Positions 5,433 to 61,194 of a DNA stretch of 64,000 nt are shown here, one piece after another. Each line of letters starts with the position of its first letter. Position 1 is the stretch's first letter. Both the position numbers and the translations under genes were made by a program. The notes under the pieces were generated by a model. The model saw only the letters and a program-made list of their open reading frames with translations. It made no database searches and was not told the origin of the DNA. The stretch is from Bacilli bacterium (GTDB lineage Bacteria; Bacillota_I; Bacilli_A; RF39; UBA660): the NCBI GenBank assembly GCA_017428485.1, contig JAFRQT010000044.1, positions 1-64,000 of the forward strand, read 5' to 3'.

Positions 5433-6776
5433 ATGGCAAGAAAAGAACCTCAAAATTTAGATGCTGAAATATCAGTATTAGGATGTGGATTTTTAGAAAA
5501 AAATGCACTTGATAAAATCATGGATGAAGTAAGCGATGATATGTTTTATAGTGAAGCAAACAGATTAATCTATAAAACAATGAAAGATCTACATATTAAT
5601 AATATTCCAGTTGATGCACAAACTGTATGTAATGAACTAGATAAAAGCAAATCATTATCTAAAGTAGGTGGAGTAGAATATATTACTGAAATAATTAATT
5701 CTGTGCCATCAACTGCTAATTTAAGTTACTATATTAATATTATTTTTGAAAAAGCTGTTTTACGTAATTTAATAGCCAAAAGTACTAAAATACAAGAAGA
5801 TTGTTATGAAGAAAAAGATAATGTAGTAGATATAGTAGAAAACGCAGAAAGAAATATATTAAGTGTATATAATGACAAGTTAGGAAGAGATATTCAAAAA
5901 ATACAAGATGTTCTTCCTGAAGTTCAAAAGACAATTGAGGCATTATCAGAATCAAAGGAAGAGTTTACTGGTATAAGAACTGGTTATTATGATTTCGATA
6001 ATATGACACGTGGTCTTCAAAAGAAACAAGTAATTATTATCGCAGGGCGTCCAGGTTGTGGAAAAAGTGCCTTTGCATTAAATATCGGTTTGAATGCCGC
6101 TATTCAAGGTAAAAAGAGTGTTGCATTATTCTCACTTGAAATGGGTGTTGAAGAAATTGCAAAAAGAATGTTTGGATGTGTAGGTAAAATAGATGGAGAT
6201 GTTCTTAAAAGCGGTAAACTAAAAAATACTGACTGGAAGAGATGGAATGAAGCAATGAGTGAACTTTCAGATACAAAGTTCTATATAGATGATTCTGGTG
6301 GTCTTACAGTTAGTGAAATTAGACGTAAATGTAGAAAATTAAAGAATTCAGATGATGGATTAGATTTAGTTATTATAGATTACTTACAATTATTATCAAG
6401 TTCAGCTAAATATGCGGGACAAAGAGTTCAAGAAGTAAGTGAAATAAGTAGAGATATTAAAAAACTTGCCATGGAACTTGATATTCCAGTAATTGCACTT
6501 GCGCAATTATCAAGAAGTGTTGAGCAAAGAAAAGGTGAAGATAGTAAACCAAGACTATCTGATTTAAGAGAATCTGGTTCAATTGAACAAGATGCCGATA
6601 TTGTACTTTTCTTACATAGTGATGAATATGGAAAATATGATGGAAATGTTAATAGAAAAGTAGAATTATTGGTTGCAAAACATAGGGCAGGTTCTACTGG
6701 AACAGTTAATCTATTATTTAAAATGAATACTGGTTCATTTGATAATTATATGAGTGGTGATGATAGCAATGAATAA
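5433..6776 (+). CDS. dnaB: replicative DNA helicase DnaB
   Basis: 447 residues, full length for the family. The N-terminal helical domain contains PQNLDAEISVLGCGFLEKNALDKIMDEV. The C-terminal RecA-like domain has Walker A GRPGCGKS near residue 205, FSLEMG, Walker B-type DLVIIDYLQLL, AQLSRSVEQR and SDLRESGSIEQDAD. It is the hexameric helicase that unwinds DNA at the chromosomal fork (dnaC in Bacillus nomenclature). The start has AAGGAG 7 bases upstream. The 3' end overlaps the start of the peptidase gene by 8 bp. Confidence 0.97.
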   Translation: MARKEPQNLDAEISVLGCGFLEKNALDKIMDEVSDDMFYSEANRLIYKTMKDLHINNIPVDAQTVCNELDKSKSLSKVGGVEYITEIINSVPSTANLSYYINIIFEKAVLRNLIAKSTKIQEDCYEEKDNVVDIVENAERNILSVYNDKLGRDIQKIQDVLPEVQKTIEALSESKEEFTGIRTGYYDFDNMTRGLQKKQVIIIAGRPGCGKSAFALNIGLNAAIQGKKSVALFSLEMGVEEIAKRMFGCVGKIDGDVLKSGKLKNTDWKRWNEAMSELSDTKFYIDDSGGLTVSEIRRKCRKLKNSDDGLDLVIIDYLQLLSSSAKYAGQRVQEVSEISRDIKKLAMELDIPVIALAQLSRSVEQRKGEDSKPRLSDLRESGSIEQDADIVLFLHSDEYGKYDGNVNRKVELLVAKHRAGSTGTVNLLFKMNTGSFDNYMSGDDSNE

Positions 6777-8223
6777 GGATAAATATTCAATTTCCTCTAT
6801 TTTGCTTGGAATTTTTTTTGCTGTGCTTGTAATATATTTAGGTTTTACTTTCGAACCACGTGAAAAAAAAGTTAATTCATATTATCAAGTATATTTAGGC
6901 GGACAAAAAATTGGACTTATTAAATCTAAAGATGAACTTTATGATTTAATTGATGAAGAACAAAAAGAGATAAAAAATTATTATAATGTTAATAAAGTAT
7001 ACCCACCTAGTGGATTAGAAGTAAAAAAAGTATTAACTTATAAGACTAATGTTATTACTGCTAAAGAAGTATATAATGAGATTAAGGATTTAGATCCATT
7101 TACTATAGAAGGTTATGAAGTATCAGTAACTCAAGAAAATAATAAAAAACTAAAGTTCTATATTTTAAATAAAGAGGACTTGGATGTTGCAGTAAGAAAT
7201 ACAATTACCTCATTCTTGAACGAAGAAGAGTATGATGCGTATTTAAGTAATACTCAAAAAGATATTAAAGATGATGGAATGGAAATAACAGATGTATATT
7301 TTGATCAAGCAGTAACAATCAAAAAAGCATATATCTCTACTGAAAAAGAGATTATTACAGATTCAGATGTTTTAAGTAGATATTTCTTATTTGGTAAAAC
7401 TGAAATAACAGATACATATAAAGTAAAAGCTAGTGATACAATTGAAAGTATTGCTGAAAAAAATAAATTAGGTGTACCAGATTTCTTAATTGCTAATCCT
7501 TCAATCAGAAGTGAAAAAGCATTACTTGCTGAAGGACAAGAAGTTAATGTAGCACCTATTAATCCAGTTGCGGATATTGTAGTTGATTCTTATCAAACTG
7601 AAACGCAAATAGTAAAATATGAATCAAAGACCCAATTAGACAAATCCTTAAGTGCAACTGAAAGATTTGTTAAACAAAAAGGATCTAATGGTGTATCTAA
7701 AGTTGTTTTCGCAACACATGAAGTTAATGGACAAATTGTTAATACAAAATTAGTATCAGAAGATGTAATCACTCCAGCAGTAGATGAAATAATTGTGGTG
7801 GGTGCTAAAAATGTTGTATATGTTGGTAATTCAACATTCTGGGCATGGCCAACAACAAAACCATATAGAATTTCATCTTATTATGGATGGAGAGTTCACC
7901 CAATTCAACATATTCAAAAATTCCATACTGGTGTAGATATTACTGGTACTAAATCTAGAGATATTTATGCAATTCAAGATGGAACAGTAGAGTCATCTTC
8001 ATATAGCGGATCTATGGGTAATTATATAACAATAGATCATCACAATGGTTATACTTCTACATACATGCATTTAAAAACTAAAATAGCAAAAGTAGGCCAA
8101 GAAGTAGAGAAAGGTGAAAAGATTGGAATAATGGGATGTACTGGTTCTTGTACAGGTACACACCTTCACCTAACTATTTATAAAAATGGTGAAAGAATTA
8201 ATCCACTTGACTTATATAAATAA
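6769..8223 (+). CDS. membrane-anchored M23 peptidoglycan endopeptidase with LysM-like and G5 domains
   Basis: About 484 residues; the ATG at 6769 is chosen because GTGGTGA lies 8 bases upstream. An N-terminal membrane anchor (ILLGIFFAVLVIYLGFTF) is followed by an unassigned domain. A LysM-like segment (DTYKVKASDTIESIAEKNKL) and a G5-like domain (near residues 285-345) come next, then a C-terminal M23 metallopeptidase. Visible zinc ligands are in FHTGVDI and the HLHL motif near the end. It probably cleaves peptide cross-links in the cell wall. It overlaps the rlmH start by one base (TAATG), so the two are translationally coupled. Confidence 0.92.
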   Translation: MNKDKYSISSILLGIFFAVLVIYLGFTFEPREKKVNSYYQVYLGGQKIGLIKSKDELYDLIDEEQKEIKNYYNVNKVYPPSGLEVKKVLTYKTNVITAKEVYNEIKDLDPFTIEGYEVSVTQENNKKLKFYILNKEDLDVAVRNTITSFLNEEEYDAYLSNTQKDIKDDGMEITDVYFDQAVTIKKAYISTEKEIITDSDVLSRYFLFGKTEITDTYKVKASDTIESIAEKNKLGVPDFLIANPSIRSEKALLAEGQEVNVAPINPVADIVVDSYQTETQIVKYESKTQLDKSLSATERFVKQKGSNGVSKVVFATHEVNGQIVNTKLVSEDVITPAVDEIIVVGAKNVVYVGNSTFWAWPTTKPYRISSYYGWRVHPIQHIQKFHTGVDITGTKSRDIYAIQDGTVESSSYSGSMGNYITIDHHNGYTSTYMHLKTKIAKVGQEVEKGEKIGIMGCTGSCTGTHLHLTIYKNGERINPLDLYK

Positions 8224-22566: not shown

Positions 22567-22753
22567 GAACAAATGAAAAAAGTAGGTGCAAAAAGTTTTT
22601 TAAAAATATTTAAAAGAGGGGTTGTCTTTTTCAAAAAAGGCTGTTACTATGTGAGTAGTAAAGGTTAAAAGCCCTTACTAATTGGTTTCGTGACCCATTA
22701 TATTTCTTTATAAAATGATTGTTATTGAATGAAGGGGTATAAGGGACACTCCA

Positions 22754-22833
22754 AATAAAATGTAGTTTATAGACCTTCCCTAGATAGCATATGGAGACTA
22801 CAACAAGATAGGTAAGATCTACGGACAATATTA
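22754..22833 (+). ncRNA. structured motif, copy 1
   Basis: It starts AATAAAATGTAGTTTA and ends CGGACAATATTA. Between these are the paired segments TAGA/TCTA (22770-22773 / 22818-22821), TT/AA (22776-22777 / 22814-22815) and CCTA/TAGG (22779-22782 / 22809-22812). A second copy with different but still pairing bases lies 118 bp downstream. Confidence 0.55.
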
Positions 22834-22839
22834 TTAAAA

Positions 22840-22865
22840 ATATCATACAAAATGTTGTGTGATAT
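22840..22865. repeat. AT-rich hairpin between the two motif copies
   Basis: ATATCATACA and TGTGTGATAT form a 10-bp stem (one G-T pair) around loop AAATGT. There is no T-run after it, so it is not a typical terminator. Confidence 0.6.
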
Positions 22866-22871
22866 GATAAC

Positions 22872-22955
22872 AATAAAATGTAGTTTAATCGCCCATTCCT
22901 ACATTAACCAAATGTGAAGTACAGCGAGAGTAGGTATGCACGACGGACAATATTA
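22872..22955 (+). ncRNA. structured motif, copy 2
   Basis: The same boundary sequences as copy 1. The paired segments are TCG/CGA (22889-22891 / 22941-22943), CAT/ATG (22894-22896 / 22936-22938) and CCTAC/GTAGG (22898-22902 / 22930-22934). All three helices keep pairing despite base changes. The apical part has a further possible stem ACATT/AATGT. It is followed by hairpin ATATTATG/CATAATAT. Confidence 0.55.
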
Positions 22956-23162
22956 TGTTATCATAATATCTGCATTCCGCTACGGTTACTAACCACCATC
23001 ATTACTACTACAACCGCCACTACTAAAATCACTATTAAAGAAATCATTACTAATATCAATAATAACATTAACAACAAAAGCACAGAAAGAACTAATAAAG
23101 AAACAGAAGCAAACATTACACAGAAAAAGAATGAATCGTGTTATAAGAAGTAACACATAGAG

Positions 23163-23192
23163 CAGAGATTGAAACACATCTCTGTTTTCTTT
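23163..23192 (+). terminator. terminator closing the non-coding region
   Basis: CAGAGAT (23163-23169) and ATCTCTG (23178-23184) followed by TTTTCTTTT. It implies a transcript from the structured region ends here. Confidence 0.75.
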
Positions 23193-23261
23193 TGCACTTA
23201 ATTCTGAATCAGTAATATCAAGCACACATTCTGTGTTCACATAATAGGTGGAGGATGCATT

Positions 23262-23325: not shown

Positions 23326-23625
23326 ATGAATGAAGAAACATTAAACAAGTTGAAGAAAGAGTTCTTTAAACAACTAATTGCAACATATGTTGCAAAAACT
23401 ATAGATTTAGAGTTTAGAACATATGGCAATGAAAGAAGTAGAAGTTATAACTGTATATTTCATAGTTGTTTAAACAATTACAAACTTAACAAACAAGATA
23501 GAGAAGCAGTATTTGATTCTGTAGATCAGATACTACTTAATCAATATGAATTATTGATAGCTAACGCTGGTAGAAATGAAAGTTTATACCTAGTTGATTT
23601 AAAGAAGGAGGATATAACATGTTAA
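23326..23625 (+). CDS. hypothetical protein, first gene of the ssb operon
   Basis: 99 residues, starting MNEETLNKLKKEFFKQLIATYVAKTIDLEF. It is predicted mostly helical, without membrane segments or motifs I recognise. CGGAG sits 8 bases before the start. The 3' end overlaps ssb by 7 bp, and that coupling suggests a role in element replication or maintenance. Confidence 0.75.
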   Translation: MNEETLNKLKKEFFKQLIATYVAKTIDLEFRTYGNERSRSYNCIFHSCLNNYKLNKQDREAVFDSVDQILLNQYELLIANAGRNESLYLVDLKKEDITC

Positions 23626-23963
23626 ATCAAGTAGTAATAGCAGGAAGGCTAACTGGAGATCCAGTAGTAGAGGAAGTTGATGGAGGTAAGAAAGTTAGTT
23701 CAATCACAGTTGCAGTACCAAGAAGTTATAAGAATGTTGATGGTACTTATGATACTGACTTTATTAAGTGTACTTTATGGGGCGGCATTGCAGAAAATAC
23801 AGCAGAATATTGTAAGAAGGGTGATATAGTTGGTGTTAAAGGAAGAATTCAGACATCTAGTTATGAAACAGATAGTGGAGAAAGAAGATATGTTATGGAG
23901 GTTGTTGCAGAAAAGATTTCATTCCTTTCATCTAGAAAGGAAGATGAAAATGAAGAAGATTAG
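23619..23963 (+). CDS. ssb: single-stranded DNA-binding protein
   Basis: 114 residues, an OB-fold: MLNQVVIAGRLTGDPVV, ITVAVPRSYKN, DFIKCTLWGGIAENTAEYCKKGDIVGVKGRI, then SFLSSRKEDENEED. The acidic tail is very short and lacks the DDIPF-type tip that recruits host repair enzymes. It is therefore likely an element-encoded SSB used for its own replication or transfer. RBS AAGGAGG. It overlaps the following gene by 14 bp. Confidence 0.92.
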   Translation: MLNQVVIAGRLTGDPVVEEVDGGKKVSSITVAVPRSYKNVDGTYDTDFIKCTLWGGIAENTAEYCKKGDIVGVKGRIQTSSYETDSGERRYVMEVVAEKISFLSSRKEDENEED

Positions 23964-24195
23964 CAATAAGGAATTGCAAAATAGAATTGCATCTAATATT
24001 TTACATTATATGGAAAAGGGTAATGTTACTATTGATGATTTGGTTTCTATAACAAAGATTAGTAATCAAAGGTTAAGTAATATACTTAATACTAGTATTC
24101 CTACTACGATAAAGATTAAAGAATTATATTATATATCAGTTGTATTAGGTGTGAGTGTAGATAAGTTAATTTATGGGGAAAATGAAAATGTTTGA
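23950..24195 (+). CDS. small helix-turn-helix protein
   Basis: 81 residues from the ATG at 23950, chosen because AAGGA lies 9 bases upstream. The segment GNVTIDDLVSITKISNQRLSNILN followed by LYYISVVLGVSVDKLIYGE has the shape of an XRE-type DNA-binding domain. It overlaps both neighbours (ssb and the AAA+/M41 gene) and so belongs to a tightly coupled operon. It may be the operon regulator. Confidence 0.7.
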   Translation: MKKISNKELQNRIASNILHYMEKGNVTIDDLVSITKISNQRLSNILNTSIPTTIKIKELYYISVVLGVSVDKLIYGENENV

Positions 24196-25438
24196 TAATA
24201 TTATAGGTTATGATGAAACTAAGAAAACATTGAAAATGTTAGTTGATGTACTTAATAATACTAAGAAGTATAAAGAGATAGGTTCTACTATACCGCATGG
24301 CTTATTCATTCATGGTAGGCCTGGAGTAGGCAAAACAACATTTGTTGAAGCTCTATTAAAAGGATTGAATAGGAAATCATTTGTTGTTAGAAAGAACAAG
24401 TCAGATGGTGATTTTATAAATTATATGAGTGATGTATTTGATGAAGCAAAGAATAGTCAACCAGCTGTTATTCTTTTAGATGATTTAGATAAATATTCAG
24501 AAACAAGTGATTCAAAAAATAATGAAGAATTTGTTGCAGTTCAATCACTAATAGATAATGTTAAAAATGATGATATATTTGTAATAGCAACAGCAAATGA
24601 TAGGTCATGTTTGCCTGACTCTTTAACTAGATCTGGTAGATTTGATATTATTATAGAATTATTCATTCCTCATGATGAGGATAAATTAAAAATATTTAAT
24701 TATTATTTAAGTAATAAGAAGGTTGATAAGAATATCAATGTAAAGAGAATCGTTGATATTTTAATTAGTGCAACTTGTGCTGATTTAGAGAAAGTTTGTA
24801 ATCAAGCTGGACTATATGCTAAATATAATAATAAGGATTCTATAGGTATGGATGAACTAATAAAAGCATCACTTGAGTTAACTTATGGTTCAAACATTGA
24901 TGATAACGATAAGTATCCAAACTATAATATAAATATAGCTTATCACGAAGCTGGGCATGCTTTAATAGCTGAATTATTTGAGCCAGAATCAGTTAGGTTT
25001 GTTACAATTTGCAAATCAAATACTACAAAAGGATTTACAATTTATAAAAATAATGACTATTATTATTGTGATATTAAGTATATGGAGTATAGGGTCAAAT
25101 CATTGTTAGCAGGAAAGGCTGCAATAGAAGTTGTTTATAATAGTTGTGATGTTGGTTCAAGTGATGATTTAAGTAGAGCATTTAATGTTGTAGATAGATT
25201 CTTTGATGATTATTGTATGGATGGCTTTGATGGATATATCAAGAATCCTCATGAAGTATCAGAAAGTACAAAAGACGCTAAAGATAATAAGATTAGGGTT
25301 TTACTAACAAAGTATTATCAAGAAGTAAAAGAATTGCTTATTGAACATAGAACTGAGTTAGATAACATTGCACATAGTTTAAATGATAAGAAAATACTAT
25401 TTCAAGATGAAATAAAGGACATTTTGAAAATGTCATAA
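24188..25438 (+). CDS. soluble FtsH-like AAA+ ATPase with M41 peptidase domain
   Basis: About 416 residues. AAA+ module: Walker A GRPGVGKTT near residue 43, Walker B VILLDDLDKY, and the second-region SLTRSGRFD with an arginine finger. Peptidase module: HEAGHALIAE near residue 253 (zinc-binding HExxH) and a downstream SSDDLSRAF that could give the third ligand Asp. Unlike cellular FtsH there is no transmembrane N-terminal part, and the protein is about 200 residues shorter. Likely an energy-dependent protease for element or regulator turnover. GGGGA supports a start at 24188; ATGs at 24173 and 24182 are alternatives. Confidence 0.85.
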   Translation: MFDNIIGYDETKKTLKMLVDVLNNTKKYKEIGSTIPHGLFIHGRPGVGKTTFVEALLKGLNRKSFVVRKNKSDGDFINYMSDVFDEAKNSQPAVILLDDLDKYSETSDSKNNEEFVAVQSLIDNVKNDDIFVIATANDRSCLPDSLTRSGRFDIIIELFIPHDEDKLKIFNYYLSNKKVDKNINVKRIVDILISATCADLEKVCNQAGLYAKYNNKDSIGMDELIKASLELTYGSNIDDNDKYPNYNINIAYHEAGHALIAELFEPESVRFVTICKSNTTKGFTIYKNNDYYYCDIKYMEYRVKSLLAGKAAIEVVYNSCDVGSSDDLSRAFNVVDRFFDDYCMDGFDGYIKNPHEVSESTKDAKDNKIRVLLTKYYQEVKELLIEHRTELDNIAHSLNDKKILFQDEIKDILKMS

Positions 25439-28841: not shown

Positions 28842-29696
28842 ATGAAAAAGAAAGAAAACTATTTGTTAATGGTACATGATGAACTATTCAATGATTTAGT
28901 TGCTCCTGTTGAGCAAAATAATAAAAAAGAGAACAAAACTAAAGTGGAATTAACCAAAAATTCATCTATGTTTACAGTTCATGAATTATTTTTGCTATCA
29001 ATACTAATAGATTATAGACTTAAAAATCCGGAACCTGATACACCAATTGCTTTAAGTTATATACATAAGAAATATAGAGGTAAACGTATTGGCAAAACAA
29101 GGGTAATGAGTGAATCAGATTTAAATGCATATGTTAAAGCTTTAAATGGATTACAGATGAAAAAAGTAAATTTATATATCGGAAAGACTAGAAACAAATA
29201 TCATCTAAGTAATAAAGAAATAAGATATGGAAGGTTATTTACTATAACAAGTATATCTAGAATGCCTAATGGTGATTACACATTCACTTATGATTTAGGA
29301 AACTATGGAGAAATACTAAGTTTAAGTAAAAGGTATTCTGACATGGTACCAATAGATTTGATAAAGATACCTTATAAACAAAATATTAAATTGTATATAG
29401 CAATGTATCTTTCAAGACTAATCTTTATAAATCAAAGAATGGGAAAGAAAGAGCTTACTGTTACAACAGAAAGCATAATGAAAAGAATTAGAATACATGA
29501 TAAAGATGGAAATGATATGGGAACTACATTATATAGGTTAATGAATGAAAAGAACCTTTCAAAGTATTCTAAAGAAAGACTATTTTGGAGCTATTTATTA
29601 GTAGTTCTTGAATTGCTCAAAGTAAAAGGCTCTATATATGATTATTCATTTCCAGAAGAGCATAGTTGGAAATGTCATATCATTATAAAAAAATAG
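28842..29696 (+). CDS. probable replication initiator (RepA-like)
   Basis: 284 residues. MFTVHELFLLSILIDYRLKNP and SYIHKKYRGKRIGKTRVMSESDLNAYVKALNGLQMKKVNLYIG look like a winged-helix DNA-binding domain, and a second basic helical domain follows. Initiators of this type sit beside DnaB-like helicases in integrative elements. The assignment rests mostly on context and the winged-helix shape. RBS AGAGGAGA. Confidence 0.5.
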   Translation: MKKKENYLLMVHDELFNDLVAPVEQNNKKENKTKVELTKNSSMFTVHELFLLSILIDYRLKNPEPDTPIALSYIHKKYRGKRIGKTRVMSESDLNAYVKALNGLQMKKVNLYIGKTRNKYHLSNKEIRYGRLFTITSISRMPNGDYTFTYDLGNYGEILSLSKRYSDMVPIDLIKIPYKQNIKLYIAMYLSRLIFINQRMGKKELTVTTESIMKRIRIHDKDGNDMGTTLYRLMNEKNLSKYSKERLFWSYLLVVLELLKVKGSIYDYSFPEEHSWKCHIIIKK

Positions 29697-29769
29697 CAGA
29701 TGGATGAAAATATTTTCCATTTGAAATAATTGAATAATTAGAAACCCCTATAAATAGGGAAATAGGAAA

Positions 29770-29833
29770 GGAGGAAGGGTGTCAATATTATAATATATAA
29801 TTCATTAGAGAAAATTGGCACCCCGAAAATATG
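29770..29833 (+). promoter_or_regulatory. hairpin-bridged ribosome binding site
   Basis: AAAGGAGGAA (GGAGG at 29770-29774) lies 56 bases before the ATG at 29831, too far to work directly. Between them GGGTGTCAA (29777-29785) pairs with TTGGCACCC (29815-29823) in a 9-bp stem, including one G-T pair. Folding leaves 9 bases between GGAGG and ATG. No other RBS is present. Confidence 0.65.
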
Positions 29834-31423
29834 GAAAAGAAAAAAGAAAAGAAATTAGTAAGTTATATATTTGAAGGTAGAACTATGTTAGCACTTGCTC
29901 TACTACAAATAGATAATAAAAAAGAATATTTAGAAAGAATATTAGAGATAAAACATTTACCACCAAGTGAAAGAGAATTATGGGTAAAATTGAAGGAAAG
30001 GTATGATATTACTGGAGAAATTGTTAGAAGAGATCTTTATAGTATATTTGGATATAATAGAGTAAATTATAATACAATACGTTTATTATTTGATACAGAT
30101 GTTAATGAAGAAATAGACAAATATTTAAGTTACTATGAAAATGTGATGAGAGGTGCAGATATATATGAAACGCTTTCTGTTTGTAGAAACAAGCTTTTAG
30201 AAGATGCAAGAATTGATGCAACTATTTTATTAGAAAAGATATTTAGTCTTTCAAAAGATAAGTCAACACAAGGTGATGCATTAAAAAATCTAGAAAAGTC
30301 TTATGATGAAGAAGTTGATAAAACAAAAATATCAACATGTATAAAAAAAATAGATGATAGAAATGCTACATTCAGAAAAGGAACAGTTAATGCAATAATG
30401 GGATATACTGGTTCATACAAAACTCTATATTGCACAAATGTTTCATATGAAGCAATAAGAAACAAATTAAATGTATGCTATATTTCACTGGAAATAAGTA
30501 GAAATGAAATGTATTATAATTTTCTTTCTAGATATTCCAATGAAGAAACATTTGATAGGAAAATAAGCCATTCAGATATGAAATTCAAAGAATTGTCTTT
30601 AGATGATAAAGATTATTTATTTCATACAATTGTACCAGCATTTGAGGAACTATCAAAACATCTTGTAATAATTGATGAAACTGATTTTAAGTCAAATAAT
30701 TCAATTGCTTTCGATGAAATATTTAGAAGAGTTGAAAGAGGTTTTATTGAGTTTACAGGAAAGGGTGTTGATATGGTAGTAATAGACCATTTGAACTTAT
30801 TAAAGTTCAATGATTCTAATGGTACAAATGACTATAGTAAAGTTAATCATTGGATGTCATATTTTAGACGTAACTGTAAGAACTTTATTATGAGACATAA
30901 GCAAATATGCATATTAGTTGCAGTTCAAAGTAGTAGGGATGGATATGAAAAAGCAAAACACAATGATGGTTCATACTCATTAACAGGAGCTGCTGAGGGA
31001 AATGAAATAGAGAGATCATCTGAAAATGTATTAGCAATATATTCAGATAGTGATTTGAAAGAAAAAATGCAAGCAAAAATACAGATAATAAAGGGAAGAA
31101 ACTGTGGGGAGATGGAATACCCAGAGATAATATCTGTAAATCCTAAATACTATATAGTATCTGATTATAACGAATCAGATGAAAACCAAAATGAAAACCA
31201 GATTATAGATGTTGGCAAAGTTAAATATGATGAAGCAGATACTATATCTCATGAGGAACCAAACAATATGAATAATCAGTCAAAGATAGTTTTGACGGAA
31301 GAGAAAAGAGAACAGTTATCTAAACTAGGGGTTAATCTATCAGATAACTCTGTTGAAATTCAGAATCAGTATGATGAAGAATCAGATAATAAGATAATAA
31401 ATGAAGGGGGAGATTTAAAATGA
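29831..31423 (+). CDS. DnaB-like helicase (RecA-fold ATPase)
   Basis: 530 residues. The C-terminal half matches the DnaB/RecA core: Walker A-like GYTGSYKT near residue 195, CYISLEISRNEM, VDMVVIDHLNLL, CILVAVQSSRDG and SLTGAAEGNEIERSSENVLAI. The Walker A Gly-Lys-Thr has the variant Ser-Tyr-Lys-Thr. The N-terminal 170 residues are unlike chromosomal DnaB and may bind the element initiator. The C-terminal 90 residues are acidic and Asn-rich. It overlaps the DUF3173 gene by 4 bp. Confidence 0.85.
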   Translation: MEKKKEKKLVSYIFEGRTMLALALLQIDNKKEYLERILEIKHLPPSERELWVKLKERYDITGEIVRRDLYSIFGYNRVNYNTIRLLFDTDVNEEIDKYLSYYENVMRGADIYETLSVCRNKLLEDARIDATILLEKIFSLSKDKSTQGDALKNLEKSYDEEVDKTKISTCIKKIDDRNATFRKGTVNAIMGYTGSYKTLYCTNVSYEAIRNKLNVCYISLEISRNEMYYNFLSRYSNEETFDRKISHSDMKFKELSLDDKDYLFHTIVPAFEELSKHLVIIDETDFKSNNSIAFDEIFRRVERGFIEFTGKGVDMVVIDHLNLLKFNDSNGTNDYSKVNHWMSYFRRNCKNFIMRHKQICILVAVQSSRDGYEKAKHNDGSYSLTGAAEGNEIERSSENVLAIYSDSDLKEKMQAKIQIIKGRNCGEMEYPEIISVNPKYYIVSDYNESDENQNENQIIDVGKVKYDEADTISHEEPNNMNNQSKIVLTEEKREQLSKLGVNLSDNSVEIQNQYDEESDNKIINEGGDLK

Positions 31424-31677: not shown

Positions 31678-32778
31678 ATGGCTATAAGAGAAGTTCAAAA
31701 AAGTGAACAAACAAAAGATGGAAGAAAATGGGTATATGAAATTAGATATAATGGTAAAAGAATTAAATCAAAGAAGTATATTACAAAAGCTGAAGCTAAA
31801 GAAGCATTGATTGAATTCTATAAAGAGAAAGATAAAGTTAATAATCAATCTATGATGACTCTAGGTGACTTATTTGAAGAACACTACAATTATCAAAAAG
31901 ATAAGGTTAAACGTACAACATTAACCAATTATGGTAAAAAGATAAAACACTTTGATTCAATAAAATCAATAAAACTCGATAAACTAAATATACATGATAT
32001 CGAGAGATGGAAAAAAGAAATCAATAGTAAAGGTCTAGCAACAAGAACAAAAAATGATTTAATGAAATATCTTAAAAGTGCTTTGAACTTTGGAACTAAA
32101 TGGTATGATTATAACTTTGTATCTATGTATAATAAAATGAGTAATTTTACTGATCCAAATGAAATGCCACATGAAATGCTATTCTATACCTATGAAGAGT
32201 TTAAACAATTTATAAGTGTAGAAGATGATTTGAAATTTAAAACATTATTTGAGACATTATATTATTGTGGGTTACGTAGAGGAGAACTTAGAGGACTATC
32301 ATGGGATTGTATAGACTTCGATAGAGAAGAATTATTTATTAAGCAGAATGTTGTTAATACTGAGGGAGATAGAGGGTATTGGTATTTAACTACGCCCAAA
32401 ACAAAATCTAGCATTAGACAAGTGCCAATACCTCGTATTCTTTTAAAGGACTTAAAAGAGTTAAAAGAAAAAGAAAAGTCATACTATGGATTTAACGATA
32501 AATGGTTTGTATTTGGGGATATAAATCCTATACATCCATATATATTGAGTAAACGAAAAAACAATAATGCCGCAAAAGCAGGTGTTAAACAAATAAGAAT
32601 ACATGACTTTAGGCATAGTTGTGCATCATTACTTATTAACAATGGAGCCAGCATTGTTATGGTTTCAAAATATCTTGGCCATACCAAAACAGATGAAACA
32701 TTAAATACATATTCACATATGTTTAGAAATAAACTCGATGATATAGTTAATACAATAAATAAATTAGATGGTGAGTAG
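31678..32778 (+). CDS. int: tyrosine integrase
   Basis: 366 residues. The N-terminal arm-binding domain has RKWVYEIRYNGKRIKSKKYITKAEAKEAL. A core-binding SAM-like domain spans about residues 65-155. The catalytic domain has Arg at 200 (YYCGLRRGEL), His-x-x-Arg at 309-312 (HDFRH), GHT near 335 and nucleophile Tyr near 345 (NTYSH). It is complete and probably active. It integrates and excises element 1, with arm repeats and a putative core site immediately to the right. RBS AGGAGG. Confidence 0.96.
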   Translation: MAIREVQKSEQTKDGRKWVYEIRYNGKRIKSKKYITKAEAKEALIEFYKEKDKVNNQSMMTLGDLFEEHYNYQKDKVKRTTLTNYGKKIKHFDSIKSIKLDKLNIHDIERWKKEINSKGLATRTKNDLMKYLKSALNFGTKWYDYNFVSMYNKMSNFTDPNEMPHEMLFYTYEEFKQFISVEDDLKFKTLFETLYYCGLRRGELRGLSWDCIDFDREELFIKQNVVNTEGDRGYWYLTTPKTKSSIRQVPIPRILLKDLKELKEKEKSYYGFNDKWFVFGDINPIHPYILSKRKNNNAAKAGVKQIRIHDFRHSCASLLINNGASIVMVSKYLGHTKTDETLNTYSHMFRNKLDDIVNTINKLDGE

Positions 32779-54633: not shown

Positions 54634-57600
54634 ATGAAGAAGGTTTTTTTGAGAAAAATTTTGTTAGTTATATTTGGAATTAGTTTTATACTATCTTCTT
54701 TTAATGTTGGGAAAATACTAGCGGCAGAACCTACATTTGAATTGTCTAATGCTGTAATAGAAAGTAAATCTGATGGAGTAGATGCTAGTATAGAAAGTTT
54801 CAGTAATAATAAATTAATAACTGATACTACTTTCCATAAAGTGGATGATTATGTTAAGTATAAATTAACTATTAAAAATACATCTAAAACAAAATATAAA
54901 TTAGTGTTATTAGATGATAGTAATACTAATGATAATGTTACTTATGAATATAATTATGACAAAGATGAGTATATATTAGAAAATGACACTATGGATGTAT
55001 TATTGATAGTGACATATAAAAAAGGTATTACTCAAATAAATCAAAGGACACAAGATCAAGAAGTTAAAATATTGTTTTATTTAGAAGATGAAGAAGGAAA
55101 TACTTATGAAGAAACAATAACAAATAATCCTAAAACTAATGATAATATTTTAATTTATATTATTACTGCAATAACATCTTTAATATTAATTGTACTAATA
55201 GCATTTAGAAAAAAATTATCTAAATTATTTGCTTTCTTATTGTTAATAGTACCTATAGCTATTAATGCATTATCGCCAAGTTTAATAATTGTATTAAGAA
55301 ATAATACTAATTTACTTGATAAAATGGTTGTTTATAGTGATGTAGATGGGGAAAGCCAAGCAGTATTAGTTGATTATAATACAGCATATGAAAGACCAAA
55401 AGATCCTGAAAAAACTGGTTATGTATTTGATAATTGGTATATTGGGGATCAAGTTTATAATTTTGATGAACCACTAACTGATGATATTAATTTAACTGCT
55501 AAATTTAATATTATTAATTACAATATAAATTATGAATTAGATGATGGTATTGTAAGCGATAATCCAAGTACATACAATGTAGAAACAGAAACATTTACAT
55601 TAAATAATCCAACTAAAGAAGGATATGTATTCTTAGGATGGAGTGAAAATGATAGTAGTGATTTAAGTACTAAAGTCACTATTAATAAAGGTAGTACAGG
55701 AGATAAAACTTTTAAAGCTCATTTTGAAGCCGGTGATGCAACTCCATATACAGTAAAGCATAAATATAAAAAGCTAGATGGAACATATGATGAAGAGGTG
55801 GAAAATTTAGTTGGAGTAACTGATAGTGAAATAACAGTTGCTATAAAACATAAGTATGGTTTTGTAGATCCAACTTTAAAATCTTTAAAAATTACATCAG
55901 ATGGGCAATCATATATAGAATATGAATATGAAAGAGAAGAGTATGAATTAACTCTTGAGAATAGTGAAAATATTGATAGTACATTTACTTCTGGTAAATA
56001 TTTATATGAAACTGAGATATCTTTGATGGCTAAAACATTAGACAATTATAATTTTGTAAAATGGTCAAATAATGAAACGTCAAAAAATATCAAATTTAAT
56101 ATAACAGAGGATACAACTATAGGCCCAATTTATCAAGTAAAGCAATATACTGTTTCATTTGATGGACAAGGTGGAAGTACTCCAGAAGACATAATAAAAG
56201 ATTATAATTCATCTATTGGAACATTACCAACAAGTGAAAAAGAAAACTATATATTTGATGGATGGTATACTGAGGCAACTGGTGGAACTAAGATAAATAG
56301 TGATACCAAGGTATTAGGAGACGTAACATATTATGCTCATTGGTTAAAGTCAATTGCACTTGCTACAGTTACTCCAACAAATATTATTATTAATAGAGGT
56401 CAATCATCAAAAATAAATGTTTCTAATGTGGATGAAGAATACACATTTAAATCAAATAATATTGGAGTTGTAACTGTTGATGAAAGTGGAATGGTTTCAT
56501 CAGTAGGTAAAGGAACAACAACAATTACTGTTAAAGGAACAACATCAGGAAAAACTAGAACAGTTAATGTAACTGTAAATGCATTAAAATTTATGGTTCA
56601 CTTTAATTCACTAGGAGGAACTAGTGTTGAAGACATTGAAAAAGAAGAAAATACAACTTTAGGAAATCTACCAACAACAGAAAAAGAAAACTATATATTT
56701 GATGGATGGTATACTGAAGAAACTGGCGGAACAAAGATAAATAGTGATACTGAAGTGGTGGAGGAAGTAACATATTATGCACATTGGTTAAAATCAATGG
56801 CACTAGCTACAGTTACTCCTGAAAGTATTACCTTAGAGAAACCTCAAACAACTACAATTGCTGTAACAAATGTGGATGAGGAATATACATTTAAATCAAA
56901 TAATACTGGAGTAGCAACTGTTGATGAAAACGGATTGGTTTCATCTGTAGGTAAAGGAACAACAACAATAACTATTACGGGAACAACATCAGGAAAAATT
57001 AAAACAGTTAATGTAACTGTAAATGCACTAAAGTGTGCAGTTAGTTTCGATTCACAAGGTGGAACAAGCGTAGATAGTATAGAAAAAGAGGAAAATGAAA
57101 CTATAGGAACTTTACCAACAAGTGAAAAAGAAAATTATATATTTGATGGATGGTATACAAGTGCTGAAGGTGGTACAAAAATCACAGAAAATACTATGGT
57201 AACTGGTTCAGTGACATATTATGCACATTGGTTAAGATCAGTTGCTCTTGCAACAGTTACTCCTGAAAGTATTACTTTAACAAGAGGAGAAACCGCTACA
57301 ATAAGCGTAACAGATGTAGATGAAGAATATACAATAACATCAAATAAAGTAGGAATAGCAACTGTTGAAAATAATGTAGTAACAGCAGTAGCAAAAGGAT
57401 CAGCAACTCTTACAGTTAGAGGTAATGTATCAAATAAAACTAAGACAGTTGCTGTAACAGTAAATCCAATAATATATACAATCAGTTTTGATTCACAAGG
57501 TGGAACTGAAGTTGAAGATATAGAAAGAGAAGAAAATACTGCAATTGGAACATTACCAACAACAGAAAAAGAAAATTATATATTTGATGGATGGTATACA

Positions 57601-60600
57601 GCTCTAACTGGTGGAAAAAGAATTTATAGTCAAACAGGTGTAACTGAAGCAACTACATATTATGCACATTGGTTAAAATCAATTGCACTTGCGGATATAA
57701 CTCCAACAAGTATTAGTATTAATAATGGTCAATCAGCAAAAATAAATGTTTCTAATGTTGATGAATCATATACATTTACATCTAATGATGAAGATGTTGC
57801 AACTGTTGATGAAAATGGAATTGTTTCATCAGTAGGAATGGGAACAACAACAATTACAATAAGAGGTACTGTTTCAAATAAAATTAGAGAAGTTAATGTT
57901 ACCGTAAATGCTCAAAAGTTTGTCATTAGCTTTGATTCACAAGGTGGAACTGAAGTTGAAGATATAGAAAGAGAAGAGAATGCTGCAATTGGAACATTAC
58001 CAACAAGTGAAAAAGAAAATTATATATTTGATGGATGGTATACAAGTGCTGAAGGTGGTACAAAAATCACAGAAAATACTATGGTAACTGGTCCAGTGAC
58101 ATATTATGCTCATTGGTTAAGAACAGTTGCTCTTGCAACAGTTACTCCTGAAAGTATTACTTTAACAAAAGGAGAAACCGCTACAATAAGCGTAACAGAT
58201 GTAGAAGAAGAATATACAATAACATCAAATAAAATAGGAATAGCAACTGTTGAAAATAATGTAGTAACAGCAGTAGCAAAAGGATCAGCAACTCTTACAA
58301 TTAGGGGTACTGTATCAAATAAAACAAAGACGGTTGATGTAACAGTAAATCCAATAATGTATACAATTAGCTTTAATTCTCATGGTGGAACTGAAGTAGA
58401 AGATATACAAAGAGAAGAAAATACTGCAATTGGAACATTACCTACAATTGAAAGAGAAGATTACATATTTGATGGATGGTATACAAGTGAAACTGGTGGA
58501 ACTAAGATAACTAGTTCAACATTAGCTAAAGGAAATGTGACTTATCATGCACAATGGTTAAAATCAGTTGCACTTGCAACAGTATCACCACAAAGTATTA
58601 CTTTAACAAGAGGAGAAACTACTACAATAAGTGTTACTGGTGTAGATGAAGAATACACACTAACTTCAAATAATGAAAGAATAGCAATAGTTGAAGATAA
58701 TGTAGTAACAGCAGTAGCAAAAGGAACAACAACTATTTCTATTAATGGTGCAGTATCAAATAAAACTAAGGCAGTTAATACAACAATAAATCCAATAATG
58801 TATACAATCAGTTTTGACTCACAAGGCGGAACTGAGGTTGAAGATATAGAAGGAGAAGAGAATACTGCAATTGGAGCATTACCAACAACAGAAAAAGAAA
58901 ACTATATATTTGCTGGATGGTATACAGCTCCAACTGGTGGAACTAAAATCTATAATCAAACAGACGTAACTGGAACAACAACATATTATGCGCATTGGTT
59001 AAAATCAGTTGCTCTAGCAACTATTACACCAGAGAGTATAAGCTTAATAATAGGGCAAACTACTACAATAAGTGTAACAGGTGCAGATGAAGAATATACT
59101 ATAACTTCAAATAATGAAGAAGTAGCAACTGTTGAAAATAATGTAGTAACAGCAGTAGCAAAAGGAACAACAACCCTTACGGTTAGAGGTACTGTATCAA
59201 ATAAAACTAAGACAGTTAATGTAACTATTACAACAGGAGCGCATACAGTAACATTTGACCCTCGTGGCGGAAGCAGTGTAGAGGATATAGAAGTTGAAGA
59301 TGATGCTGCAATTGGAACACTACCAACAAGTGAAAAAGAAAATTATGAATTAATTGGATGGTATACAAGTGCAAATGGTGGAACTAAGATAACTAGTTCA
59401 ACTAAAATAACAGATGATGTAACATATTATGCACATTGGAATCAAATTGATTTAGATTTAACTAAAGTATTCTATATTCCTGGTTCTTGTACATTTAATG
59501 GAAGTGCAACTGCTTCTCAAGTAGGAAATATAACAAGTGATTCTCCACAAGGATGTGTAAGTACAATTAATCCTAGTGGAAATGATATTGATTATACTGA
59601 TGTAAAATATATTGATTCTCAAATATCATTATTTAGTACTGATAATTTTGAAAAAGATTTTGAATTAGGATTTACTCTAAATGAATTCATAAGAGATGAT
59701 ACAGTTAATACACAATCTACAATTGTTAACTCAAAATTAGAAAATTCAACTGAAAAATATCCTGGATTTGTTATTAGAAGAAATACAAATAAATTTGAAT
59801 TAACTGAAAGATTTGGTAATGATACATATGCAGCACAATTTGTATACGCTGCAGGAATGAATATTAGAGTATCTAGACAAGATGGAGTAATTTTCTATTC
59901 AATAGATGGCGGAAAATGGATTAGCTTACAAAGTATAAAGTCTTATGATAAGAGATTTAATTTAACTACATGGTTTGGGGCTATGTCAAAAGAAACAAAT
60001 ATGGCTTCTACTGGAGAAGGTTCTACTGCAGATAGATATTTCAAAGGAAATATTTCAAATGTTTATATTAAGTTAGAAACAGGAAGTGCAACAAAGCATA
60101 CAGTTACATTTGATCCAAAAGGTGGATCAGCAATATTTACTTCTAAACAAGTTAAAGATGGTAATAAGATTTTCGGACTTCCAACAGCAACAAGAAATAA
60201 TATGGAATTAGAAGGATGGTATACTGATGAAACATATACAACTAAAGTTACAGAAGATACTATTATCAATGAGGATGTAACATTTGTTGCTAAATGGAAG
60301 GGATTAAATGCTATAGCAAGAGTAGATGATACAGAATTTATTTCTCTTCAAGATGCTATTGATTCTACTCGTGGTAGTGAAACAAAGAAAGTAATTACCA
60401 TACTTGAAGATTTAACTATAACTGAAAAATTAACAATACACTCTGATAATAATATAGAATTTGATTTACAAAATAATACTCTTACTAGTACAAAAGTATC
60501 AATTTTTGAAAATTATGGTATTCTTACTATTAAGAATGGTACATTAATTAATAATGGAGCAAAACCATATTATTCAATAAACAATAAGTCTACTGGAGTA

Positions 60601-61194
60601 GTTTATATAACTGGTGGTACATTTAGGGCTACTAAAGAAAATGCTATTTCAAATGATGGTAGAATGGAAATATCAGGTGGAAATATAATCGGAACAGCAG
60701 ACGCAGCTCCTATTAATAATAATACTGATGGAATTCTAATAGTAAGTGGTGGTTCTATAGTTGCAACAAGTGAAAATAAAGGTCAAGCTATTTACAATGA
60801 TGGTGGAACTGTAACAATAACGGATGGTGCTTACTTAGAAAATAATTCTACAAATAGAGCAGCACTTCATAATAATGTAGGAACTGTCAATATATTAGGT
60901 GGAACTATCATTGCTAAGAATTATTCAGCAGCATTAAATAGTGATACTATGATTATTGGGGATAATTCTGATCCTATTAACATTACATCACCTGTATTAC
61001 AAGGTAAAACTTATGGATTAGAAATTGCTTCAGGTAAAACTGTAACGGTATATGATGGTATATTTAAAGGCATTACTAGTGCCATAAATGATTTAAGTAA
61101 AGTAACACATAATACTAACGTAGATTTCAATACTACAAATACTGAAACAATAGGTGATAATACATATAATGTTGCTTACTTAGAAGAACAATAA
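54634..61194 (+). CDS. giant repeat surface protein (Big_2 / InlB B-repeats, LamG-like and beta-helix C terminus)
   Basis: 2186 residues. Signal peptide at 1-31 (cleavage near ILAAEP), then an extracellular domain. A sorting-like NPKTND (165-170) with hydrophobic helix 172-191, RKK, and a second helix 199-221 follow. Two degenerate InlB repeats come next. Eight units alternate an InlB B-repeat (ENYIFDGWYT...YYAHW) with Big_2-like Ig domains (ALATVTPESITL...VNVTV), period about 147 residues. Then a LamG-like domain (about 1606-1815), another InlB repeat and a beta-helix of GGT/GGS turns (about 1895-2186). There is no C-terminal anchor, so the membrane hairpin near the N terminus must hold it. 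Likely an adhesin. Confidence 0.9.
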   Translation: MKKVFLRKILLVIFGISFILSSFNVGKILAAEPTFELSNAVIESKSDGVDASIESFSNNKLITDTTFHKVDDYVKYKLTIKNTSKTKYKLVLLDDSNTNDNVTYEYNYDKDEYILENDTMDVLLIVTYKKGITQINQRTQDQEVKILFYLEDEEGNTYEETITNNPKTNDNILIYIITAITSLILIVLIAFRKKLSKLFAFLLLIVPIAINALSPSLIIVLRNNTNLLDKMVVYSDVDGESQAVLVDYNTAYERPKDPEKTGYVFDNWYIGDQVYNFDEPLTDDINLTAKFNIINYNINYELDDGIVSDNPSTYNVETETFTLNNPTKEGYVFLGWSENDSSDLSTKVTINKGSTGDKTFKAHFEAGDATPYTVKHKYKKLDGTYDEEVENLVGVTDSEITVAIKHKYGFVDPTLKSLKITSDGQSYIEYEYEREEYELTLENSENIDSTFTSGKYLYETEISLMAKTLDNYNFVKWSNNETSKNIKFNITEDTTIGPIYQVKQYTVSFDGQGGSTPEDIIKDYNSSIGTLPTSEKENYIFDGWYTEATGGTKINSDTKVLGDVTYYAHWLKSIALATVTPTNIIINRGQSSKINVSNVDEEYTFKSNNIGVVTVDESGMVSSVGKGTTTITVKGTTSGKTRTVNVTVNALKFMVHFNSLGGTSVEDIEKEENTTLGNLPTTEKENYIFDGWYTEETGGTKINSDTEVVEEVTYYAHWLKSMALATVTPESITLEKPQTTTIAVTNVDEEYTFKSNNTGVATVDENGLVSSVGKGTTTITITGTTSGKIKTVNVTVNALKCAVSFDSQGGTSVDSIEKEENETIGTLPTSEKENYIFDGWYTSAEGGTKITENTMVTGSVTYYAHWLRSVALATVTPESITLTRGETATISVTDVDEEYTITSNKVGIATVENNVVTAVAKGSATLTVRGNVSNKTKTVAVTVNPIIYTISFDSQGGTEVEDIEREENTAIGTLPTTEKENYIFDGWYTALTGGKRIYSQTGVTEATTYYAHWLKSIALADITPTSISINNGQSAKINVSNVDESYTFTSNDEDVATVDENGIVSSVGMGTTTITIRGTVSNKIREVNVTVNAQKFVISFDSQGGTEVEDIEREENAAIGTLPTSEKENYIFDGWYTSAEGGTKITENTMVTGPVTYYAHWLRTVALATVTPESITLTKGETATISVTDVEEEYTITSNKIGIATVENNVVTAVAKGSATLTIRGTVSNKTKTVDVTVNPIMYTISFNSHGGTEVEDIQREENTAIGTLPTIEREDYIFDGWYTSETGGTKITSSTLAKGNVTYHAQWLKSVALATVSPQSITLTRGETTTISVTGVDEEYTLTSNNERIAIVEDNVVTAVAKGTTTISINGAVSNKTKAVNTTINPIMYTISFDSQGGTEVEDIEGEENTAIGALPTTEKENYIFAGWYTAPTGGTKIYNQTDVTGTTTYYAHWLKSVALATITPESISLIIGQTTTISVTGADEEYTITSNNEEVATVENNVVTAVAKGTTTLTVRGTVSNKTKTVNVTITTGAHTVTFDPRGGSSVEDIEVEDDAAIGTLPTSEKENYELIGWYTSANGGTKITSSTKITDDVTYYAHWNQIDLDLTKVFYIPGSCTFNGSATASQVGNITSDSPQGCVSTINPSGNDIDYTDVKYIDSQISLFSTDNFEKDFELGFTLNEFIRDDTVNTQSTIVNSKLENSTEKYPGFVIRRNTNKFELTERFGNDTYAAQFVYAAGMNIRVSRQDGVIFYSIDGGKWISLQSIKSYDKRFNLTTWFGAMSKETNMASTGEGSTADRYFKGNISNVYIKLETGSATKHTVTFDPKGGSAIFTSKQVKDGNKIFGLPTATRNNMELEGWYTDETYTTKVTEDTIINEDVTFVAKWKGLNAIARVDDTEFISLQDAIDSTRGSETKKVITILEDLTITEKLTIHSDNNIEFDLQNNTLTSTKVSIFENYGILTIKNGTLINNGAKPYYSINNKSTGVVYITGGTFRATKENAISNDGRMEISGGNIIGTADAAPINNNTDGILIVSGGSIVATSENKGQAIYNDGGTVTITDGAYLENNSTNRAALHNNVGTVNILGGTIIAKNYSAALNSDTMIIGDNSDPINITSPVLQGKTYGLEIASGKTVTVYDGIFKGITSAINDLSKVTHNTNVDFNTTNTETIGDNTYNVAYLEEQ
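56146..59430 (+). repeat. eight-unit tandem coding repeat of about 441 bp
   Basis: Units start near 56146, 56590, 57034, 57475, 57919, 58360, 58801 and 59245. The segments 57126-57440 and 58008-58322 differ at only a handful of positions, although they are two units apart. Confidence 0.85.

Follow-up and report, generated by a model that had tools for sequence, protein, structure and literature searches.

What is the tandem structured motif at positions 22754–22955 of the window, i.e., of the whole 64,000-nucleotide stretch of DNA analysed here, and what could it do at the head of a group of replication genes? The comparisons described below show that the motif does not stand alone as a repeat but is a piece from the middle of a longer noncoding unit. 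We suggest that this unit is most likely a leader RNA that acts in cis, for which processive antitermination is probably the best specific guess.

Two related copies within the window

Copy 1 (22754–22833) and copy 2 (22872–22955), both on the plus strand, have identical flanks of 16 nt (22754–22769 and 22872–22887) and 12 nt (22822–22833 and 22944–22955), exactly as the first-pass annotation had described. Neither flank has an exact third occurrence in the window, and no further copy of the paired motif was found in the window's own genome. The exact pattern matched once in the genome contigs, inside a coding sequence (AraC-like by inspection), which was judged to be chance. In viral contigs the motif patterns gave no matches, or matches that were also judged to be chance.

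The three inner helices originally proposed are all present, i.e., TAGA/TCTA, CTT/AAG and CCTA/TAGG in copy 1 and TCG/CGA, CAT/ATG and CCTAC/GTAGG in copy 2. Of the 14 closing positions, 11 are paired in each interior, while the mean of the shuffles is about 6.3 (p = 0.0012 for copy 1 and p = 0.0009 for copy 2), so that the pairing is above chance at about 0.001 in each. However, taken alone the interiors have an ordinary folding energy (p = 0.39 for copy 1 and p = 0.19 for copy 2) and the proposed helices of copy 2 have a probability of only ~0.01 in the full-length ensemble. The earlier claim of strong covariation between the copies was thus overstated, although the helices do pair beyond chance.

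As the flanks of copy 1 pair with each other, this copy makes up a single long, imperfect hairpin whose helices have probabilities of ~0.6–0.93 in the predicted full-length ensemble, where it is the only copy to form such a hairpin (p about 0.9). The favoured pairing in copy 2 is instead between CGGACAATATTATG and CATAATATctgcatTCCG just downstream (probability 0.91–0.98). Copy 2 is placed in a predicted three-way junction (22880–22983) whose order of parts is shared with modules in the homologues. The junction consists of P1 (GTAG/CTAC, 22880–22883 with 22980–22983), the variable hairpin P2 (22889–22943) and P3 (CGGA/TCCG, 22944–22947 with 22976–22979, extended by 22950–22957 with 22962–22969). 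In the full-length ensemble P3 has a probability of 0.91–0.98, while P1 and P2 are both at ~0–0.01. For the local stretch, the junction form closed by GTAG/CTAC is 0.3 kcal/mol costlier than the best fold, and the proposed copy 2 helices likewise lie only 0.3 kcal/mol above it. The AT-rich hairpin noted after each copy is found at 22840–22865 (pair probability ~0.9–1.0) and at 22950–22969.

A noncoding unit ahead of a small gene and ssb

The copies lie within a noncoding transcription unit (22622–23193, plus strand) of ~530 nt, which runs from a promoter through a folded 5' domain and an unstructured, G-poor tail to a terminator. The predicted promoter (22622–22650) has a TTGTCT box, a 17-nt spacer and an extended -10 box, TGTTACTAT. 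We infer that the RNA is transcribed in vivo and starts at about 22657, giving a transcript of ~530 nt (22657–23190) bracketed by promoter and terminator; the fold of the whole region has a z-score of -3.8. Helix H1 (22658–22666 paired with 22670–22678) stands at its very beginning. After the junction comes the conserved TTACTAACC (22986–22994), and then the tail (22995–23162), which is low in G and whose folding energy is not below that of shuffles. Counted from TTACTAACC, the G content is 9.6% in the window.

The unit ends in an intrinsic terminator, CAGAGAT-tgaaacac-ATCTCTG-TTTTCTTTT (23163–23193, pair probability 0.83–1.0), which begins 208 bases beyond the motif, in good agreement with the 210 bases first estimated. 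A simple terminator scan missed it, probably because the greedy stem extension consumes its T run. A T/N-rich ORF in the window was not taken as a gene, since the homologues have no open frame through the RNA or the tail. No ORF is conserved in the homologues, nor did they reveal a conserved reading frame that would represent a leader peptide.

It had been stated that ssb comes next. In fact, a gene for a 99-aa protein (23326–23625, plus strand) is the first after the terminator; it precedes ssb (23619–23963, plus strand; Pfam PF00436, E = 1.6e-27) and overlaps it. The element SSB belongs to the ordinary bacterial family. For the 99-aa protein no Pfam, PHROGs or NCBIfam family scores above threshold; its predicted structure consists mainly of helices (pLDDT 81), matches no solved fold significantly and shows no recognised RNA-binding fold.

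Further downstream on the plus strand are a conserved replication-region protein of 284 aa and a DnaB-like helicase of the element (together 28842–31423; DnaB_C E = 8e-16), as well as the tyrosine integrase (31678–32778, Pfam PF00589). The 284-aa protein (28842–29693) is 58% identical to a 285-aa protein of another element, the one in genome G246; its predicted structure was of too low quality and was left out. Between ssb and this region, 24173–25438 encodes an FtsH-like protein (421 aa, AAA plus M41 protease) that is shorter than the family's housekeeping FtsH. Its relatives (56% identical) are confined to G354 and G270, where they have other genes around them. A link between this gene and the RNA was rejected, as these relatives sit elsewhere without the RNA. 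Far from the unit, at 54634–61194, lies a very large predicted surface protein of 2186 aa with many near-identical internal repeats.

Homologous units in two other elements

The RNA unit also precedes the same 99-aa/ssb-type gene pair in two other elements, carried by the genomes G246 and G256, out of about 385 further family genomes. Relatives of the 99-aa protein itself are restricted to the same two (36% identity in G246 and 33% in G256; 2 of 372 family genomes searched besides the window's), and are always located behind the RNA. Both elements show a promoter with identical spacing, hairpins, TTACTAACC, a tail with 1–4% G, a terminator, a 101-aa gene and ssb. A covariance model built on the first 79 positions and searched against 386 genomes recovers the same three genomes at E below 1e-20. 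There are no convincing further matches among the 386; on inspection, the best three of the weak ones (E from 4e-6 to 0.01) resemble coding or unrelated sequence.

It is precisely at the -35 box that the sequence becomes conserved. Between the two homologous units (L038 and L039), the identity is 0.53–0.65 upstream and jumps to 0.82–0.88 from this box onward. The promoter spacing and the TG extension are also found in both, and the promoter is listed by the promoter scan in L040. The window copy has an identity of 0.73 to the homologues over the first 60 bases and is at background level in plain identity thereafter, so that the rest of the comparison is one of architecture. This common architecture consists of a variable hairpin, CGG, a second hairpin, TTACTAACC, the G-poor tail and the terminator. 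The order P2-CGG-P3-TTACTAACC is seen in L038 and in both L039 modules, in which TTACTAACC is identical to that of the window. Folding exceeds that of shuffles in the 5' domains (z from -1.8 to -3.6) but not in the tails, and the G content from TTACTAACC is 1.3% in L038 and 4.2% in L039.

Several helices appear to be kept while their sequence changes. For H1, 96% of the cells are paired over the three homologues and four of the nine pairs carry changes in both partners; the observed value is reached by 15 of 500 shuffles, and slid controls are 26–59% paired. A hairpin stands directly before CGG in all five modules (two in the window, one in L038 and two in L039), the sequences of which are unrelated except for the similar pair L038 and the first L039 module (L039a). 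The chance of the closing helix is 0.01–0.11 per module, with a joint chance of ~7e-7 if four modules are taken as independent, in post hoc tests. P3 is weaker, with a joint chance of ~0.003, also post hoc. The modules were compared without a MAFFT alignment, as MAFFT could not align them for the pair count. The count of G-T versus A-C changes (12 to 1) was left unused since it is circular, the helices having been chosen by RNA rules. The terminator stem is altered and yet paired, CAGGAGA/TCTCCTG in L038 and CAGGAGA/TCTTCTG in L039.

Judged from these comparisons, conservation across the three elements extends to the predicted promoter, the terminator and the architecture. The expectation that homologues would preserve the pairing thus holds for the place of the hairpin, directly before CGG; however, the hairpin is shorter and unrelated in sequence, and the 80-base tandem copy is unique to the window. 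L038 may in addition form an H-type pseudoknot, according to its predicted fold.

Known families do not account for the unit. With Rfam 15, no family in the window reaches the gathering threshold, none that is relevant appears up to E = 10 in either homologue or the region around the unit in the window, and the related loci gave only a tRNA. The literature searches made here turned up no description of the unit. Together with the conserved promoter and terminator and the covarying helices, this supports the original view of a structured RNA that matches no known riboswitch.

The G246 element is ~15.5 kb long and is inserted in uvrB, with a 107-aa fragment at the left and the full uvrB at the right. 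The right end supplies a divergent 5' segment that gives a full uvrB of 649 aa, and the insertion therefore seems to restore its target gene. The left copy, cut to 107 aa, is at L040 10074–10397 and the right one at L070, about 5690–7640. The element encodes ssb, PcfK, PcfJ, DnaB-like helicases, tyrosine recombinases and the 285-aa protein, and its RNA promoter is ~0.5 kb from the left junction. Attachment repeats were not found in the window, and the position of the left end is known from G246 only. No DNA similarity was found in plasmids and phages, and viral contigs gave no relatives of the element proteins, except one false match to a phage protein.

More distant elements, reached through the 284-aa protein, contain similarly arranged noncoding units (L088 and L092), with a promoter-like box, hairpins, a tail with 0–1 G per 60 bases and a 3' hairpin with a common loop. 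The look-alike units are at about 14400–14860 of L088 (minus strand), 5225–5540 of L092 and about 15640–16180 of L089 (minus strand), and share the loop of the 3' hairpin (AAAGTTAAAA-like). None of the three matches the window RNA by sequence or covariance model. As the model does not detect them, they are treated as suggestive only.

Possible functions of the RNA

We suggest that the motif is the middle of a structured leader RNA of ~530 nt heading an early operon (the 99-aa gene, ssb and replication genes), and tentatively, at somewhat less than an even chance, that this leader is a processive antiterminator acting in cis. In this mechanism; (i) the RNA would be transcribed from its own promoter and, while being made, fold into several hairpins and at least one three-way-junction module, with the second module duplicated or half-duplicated in the window, (ii) its 3' part would be an unstructured G-poor stretch followed by the intrinsic terminator before the first gene, and (iii) the RNA would act in cis on RNA polymerase, so that only polymerases started at this promoter pass the terminator at 23163 and later ones, while stray host transcription would be stopped there. 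Conservation from the -35 box, covariation in H1, P2 before CGG and the changing yet paired terminator stem argue for a leader, as does the position of the RNA before the 99-aa/ssb pair in three of three elements. Against it count that there are only three homologues and that the window RNA is at background identity past 60 nt. Classical attenuation is unlikely, as no antiterminator strand with a complement of at least 6 bases to the terminator arm lies upstream in any of the three units; there is one 5-base match in L039.

Very few RNA antiterminators are known from mobile elements. The nearest precedent in function is canT of Tn916, which was not described until 2024; this RNA of 341–452 nt acts in cis as a processive antiterminator and is required for transcription past terminator T1, close to the element's left end (PMC11658703). 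Both are multi-hairpin RNAs of several hundred nt near the end of a Gram-positive integrative element, with a terminator ahead of a DNA-processing operon. The window unit lies, as canT does, near the element end and upstream of a terminator before an operon, with the left end taken from G246 only. However, canT is situated toward the right end and becomes active only once the element has excised, while here the promoter, the RNA and the terminator directly adjoin one another at the operon's start. The authors of canT found its structure hard to interpret from predictions alone (PMC11658703). A family with conserved helices from uncultured bacteria would let covariation reveal the active structure.

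In pLS20 and its relatives an RNA antiterminator and a small protein (the conAn1/conAn2 pair) stand together at the very start of the operon, a likeness by description, as far as it is outlined in PMC8955417; the RNA studied here is likewise followed by a small conserved protein. By the same outline, the pLS20 operon exceeds 30 kb and contains more than 20 terminators, whereas few further terminators occur within the operon studied here, which counts against antitermination. The put sites of HK022 are likewise nascent RNA hairpins downstream of an early promoter (PMC9378689), and are again likened by description only; put is ~70 nt with two stem-loops and one site per early operon.

A bolder version of the antitermination model would make the RNA a new class of large structured RNA at the head of replication operons. 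A protein (SSB, RNA polymerase or the 99-aa protein) would land on its nearly G-free tail, and the RNA would have the 99-aa protein as its partner in a two-part antitermination. We consider this version doubtful, and a G-free tail has to our knowledge no known role in antitermination.

A stable large noncoding RNA that acts in trans or forms an RNP, in the manner of ROOL, GOLLD or the PLE satellite transcript, is also a rather unlikely explanation. Such an RNA would always stop at the terminator, and the downstream genes would be transcribed separately. The unit has its own promoter and terminator, a length of 320–540 nt, several hairpins, the possible L038 pseudoknot and a disordered segment; large ornate RNAs of phages and prophages are of similar size and have a disordered linker (ROOL/GOLLD, PMC12286853), and abundant noncoding RNAs are known from satellites (PMC7567579). 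However, it has no Rfam match to ROOL/GOLLD-type families, is not near tRNAs, has no antisense targets beyond chance and is tied to the start of one operon, at the head of replication genes.

The single-strand origin proposed at first reading, or a transfer origin, is less likely still, and nothing specific favours it, while the RNA half of that proposal is supported. The hairpins would then fold in single-stranded DNA and the promoter would prime synthesis near ssb. Folded hairpins and a promoter are the features expected of a lagging-strand origin (sso), and the unit is the longest noncoding stretch of an element with replication genes and ssb. Such sites are present in ICEs such as ICEBs1 and Tn916 (PMC4595007, PMC11658703). 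Against this, the conserved terminator and the G-poor tail are not needed for an origin, and no relaxase was recognised among the proteins scanned. Should either a trans-acting RNA or such an origin be the answer, the unit would still be a new type of element at the head of a replication module.

It is very unlikely that the unit is an autogenous leader, in which the SSB of the element or the 99-aa protein binds the folded domain, spreads along the tail and controls the operon, as T4 gp32 controls its own mRNA. The layout fits, with a folded domain and then 140–180 nt of unfolded G-poor RNA directly upstream of the 99-aa gene and ssb, but a terminator separates tail and genes, the SSB is an ordinary one and the 99-aa protein lacks a recognised RNA-binding fold. 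A functionless AT-rich spacer with a local duplication is just as improbable, as the conserved promoter and terminator and the covarying helices in three elements contradict it, although the energy of the motif interiors is ordinary and the model search of whole genomes gave three clear matches with weak, chance-like ones below.

Two minor observations concern short sequences in the units. GCTCTTA, which we take to be identical to the core of lambda boxA, occurs in the first P3 strand of L038 (about 1204–1215) and of L039 (minus strand), and is absent from the window copies. Between the terminator and the first gene, at about 23200–23220, ATTC(T/A)GA(A/T)TCAG is conserved in all three elements and is possibly an operator or a second promoter.
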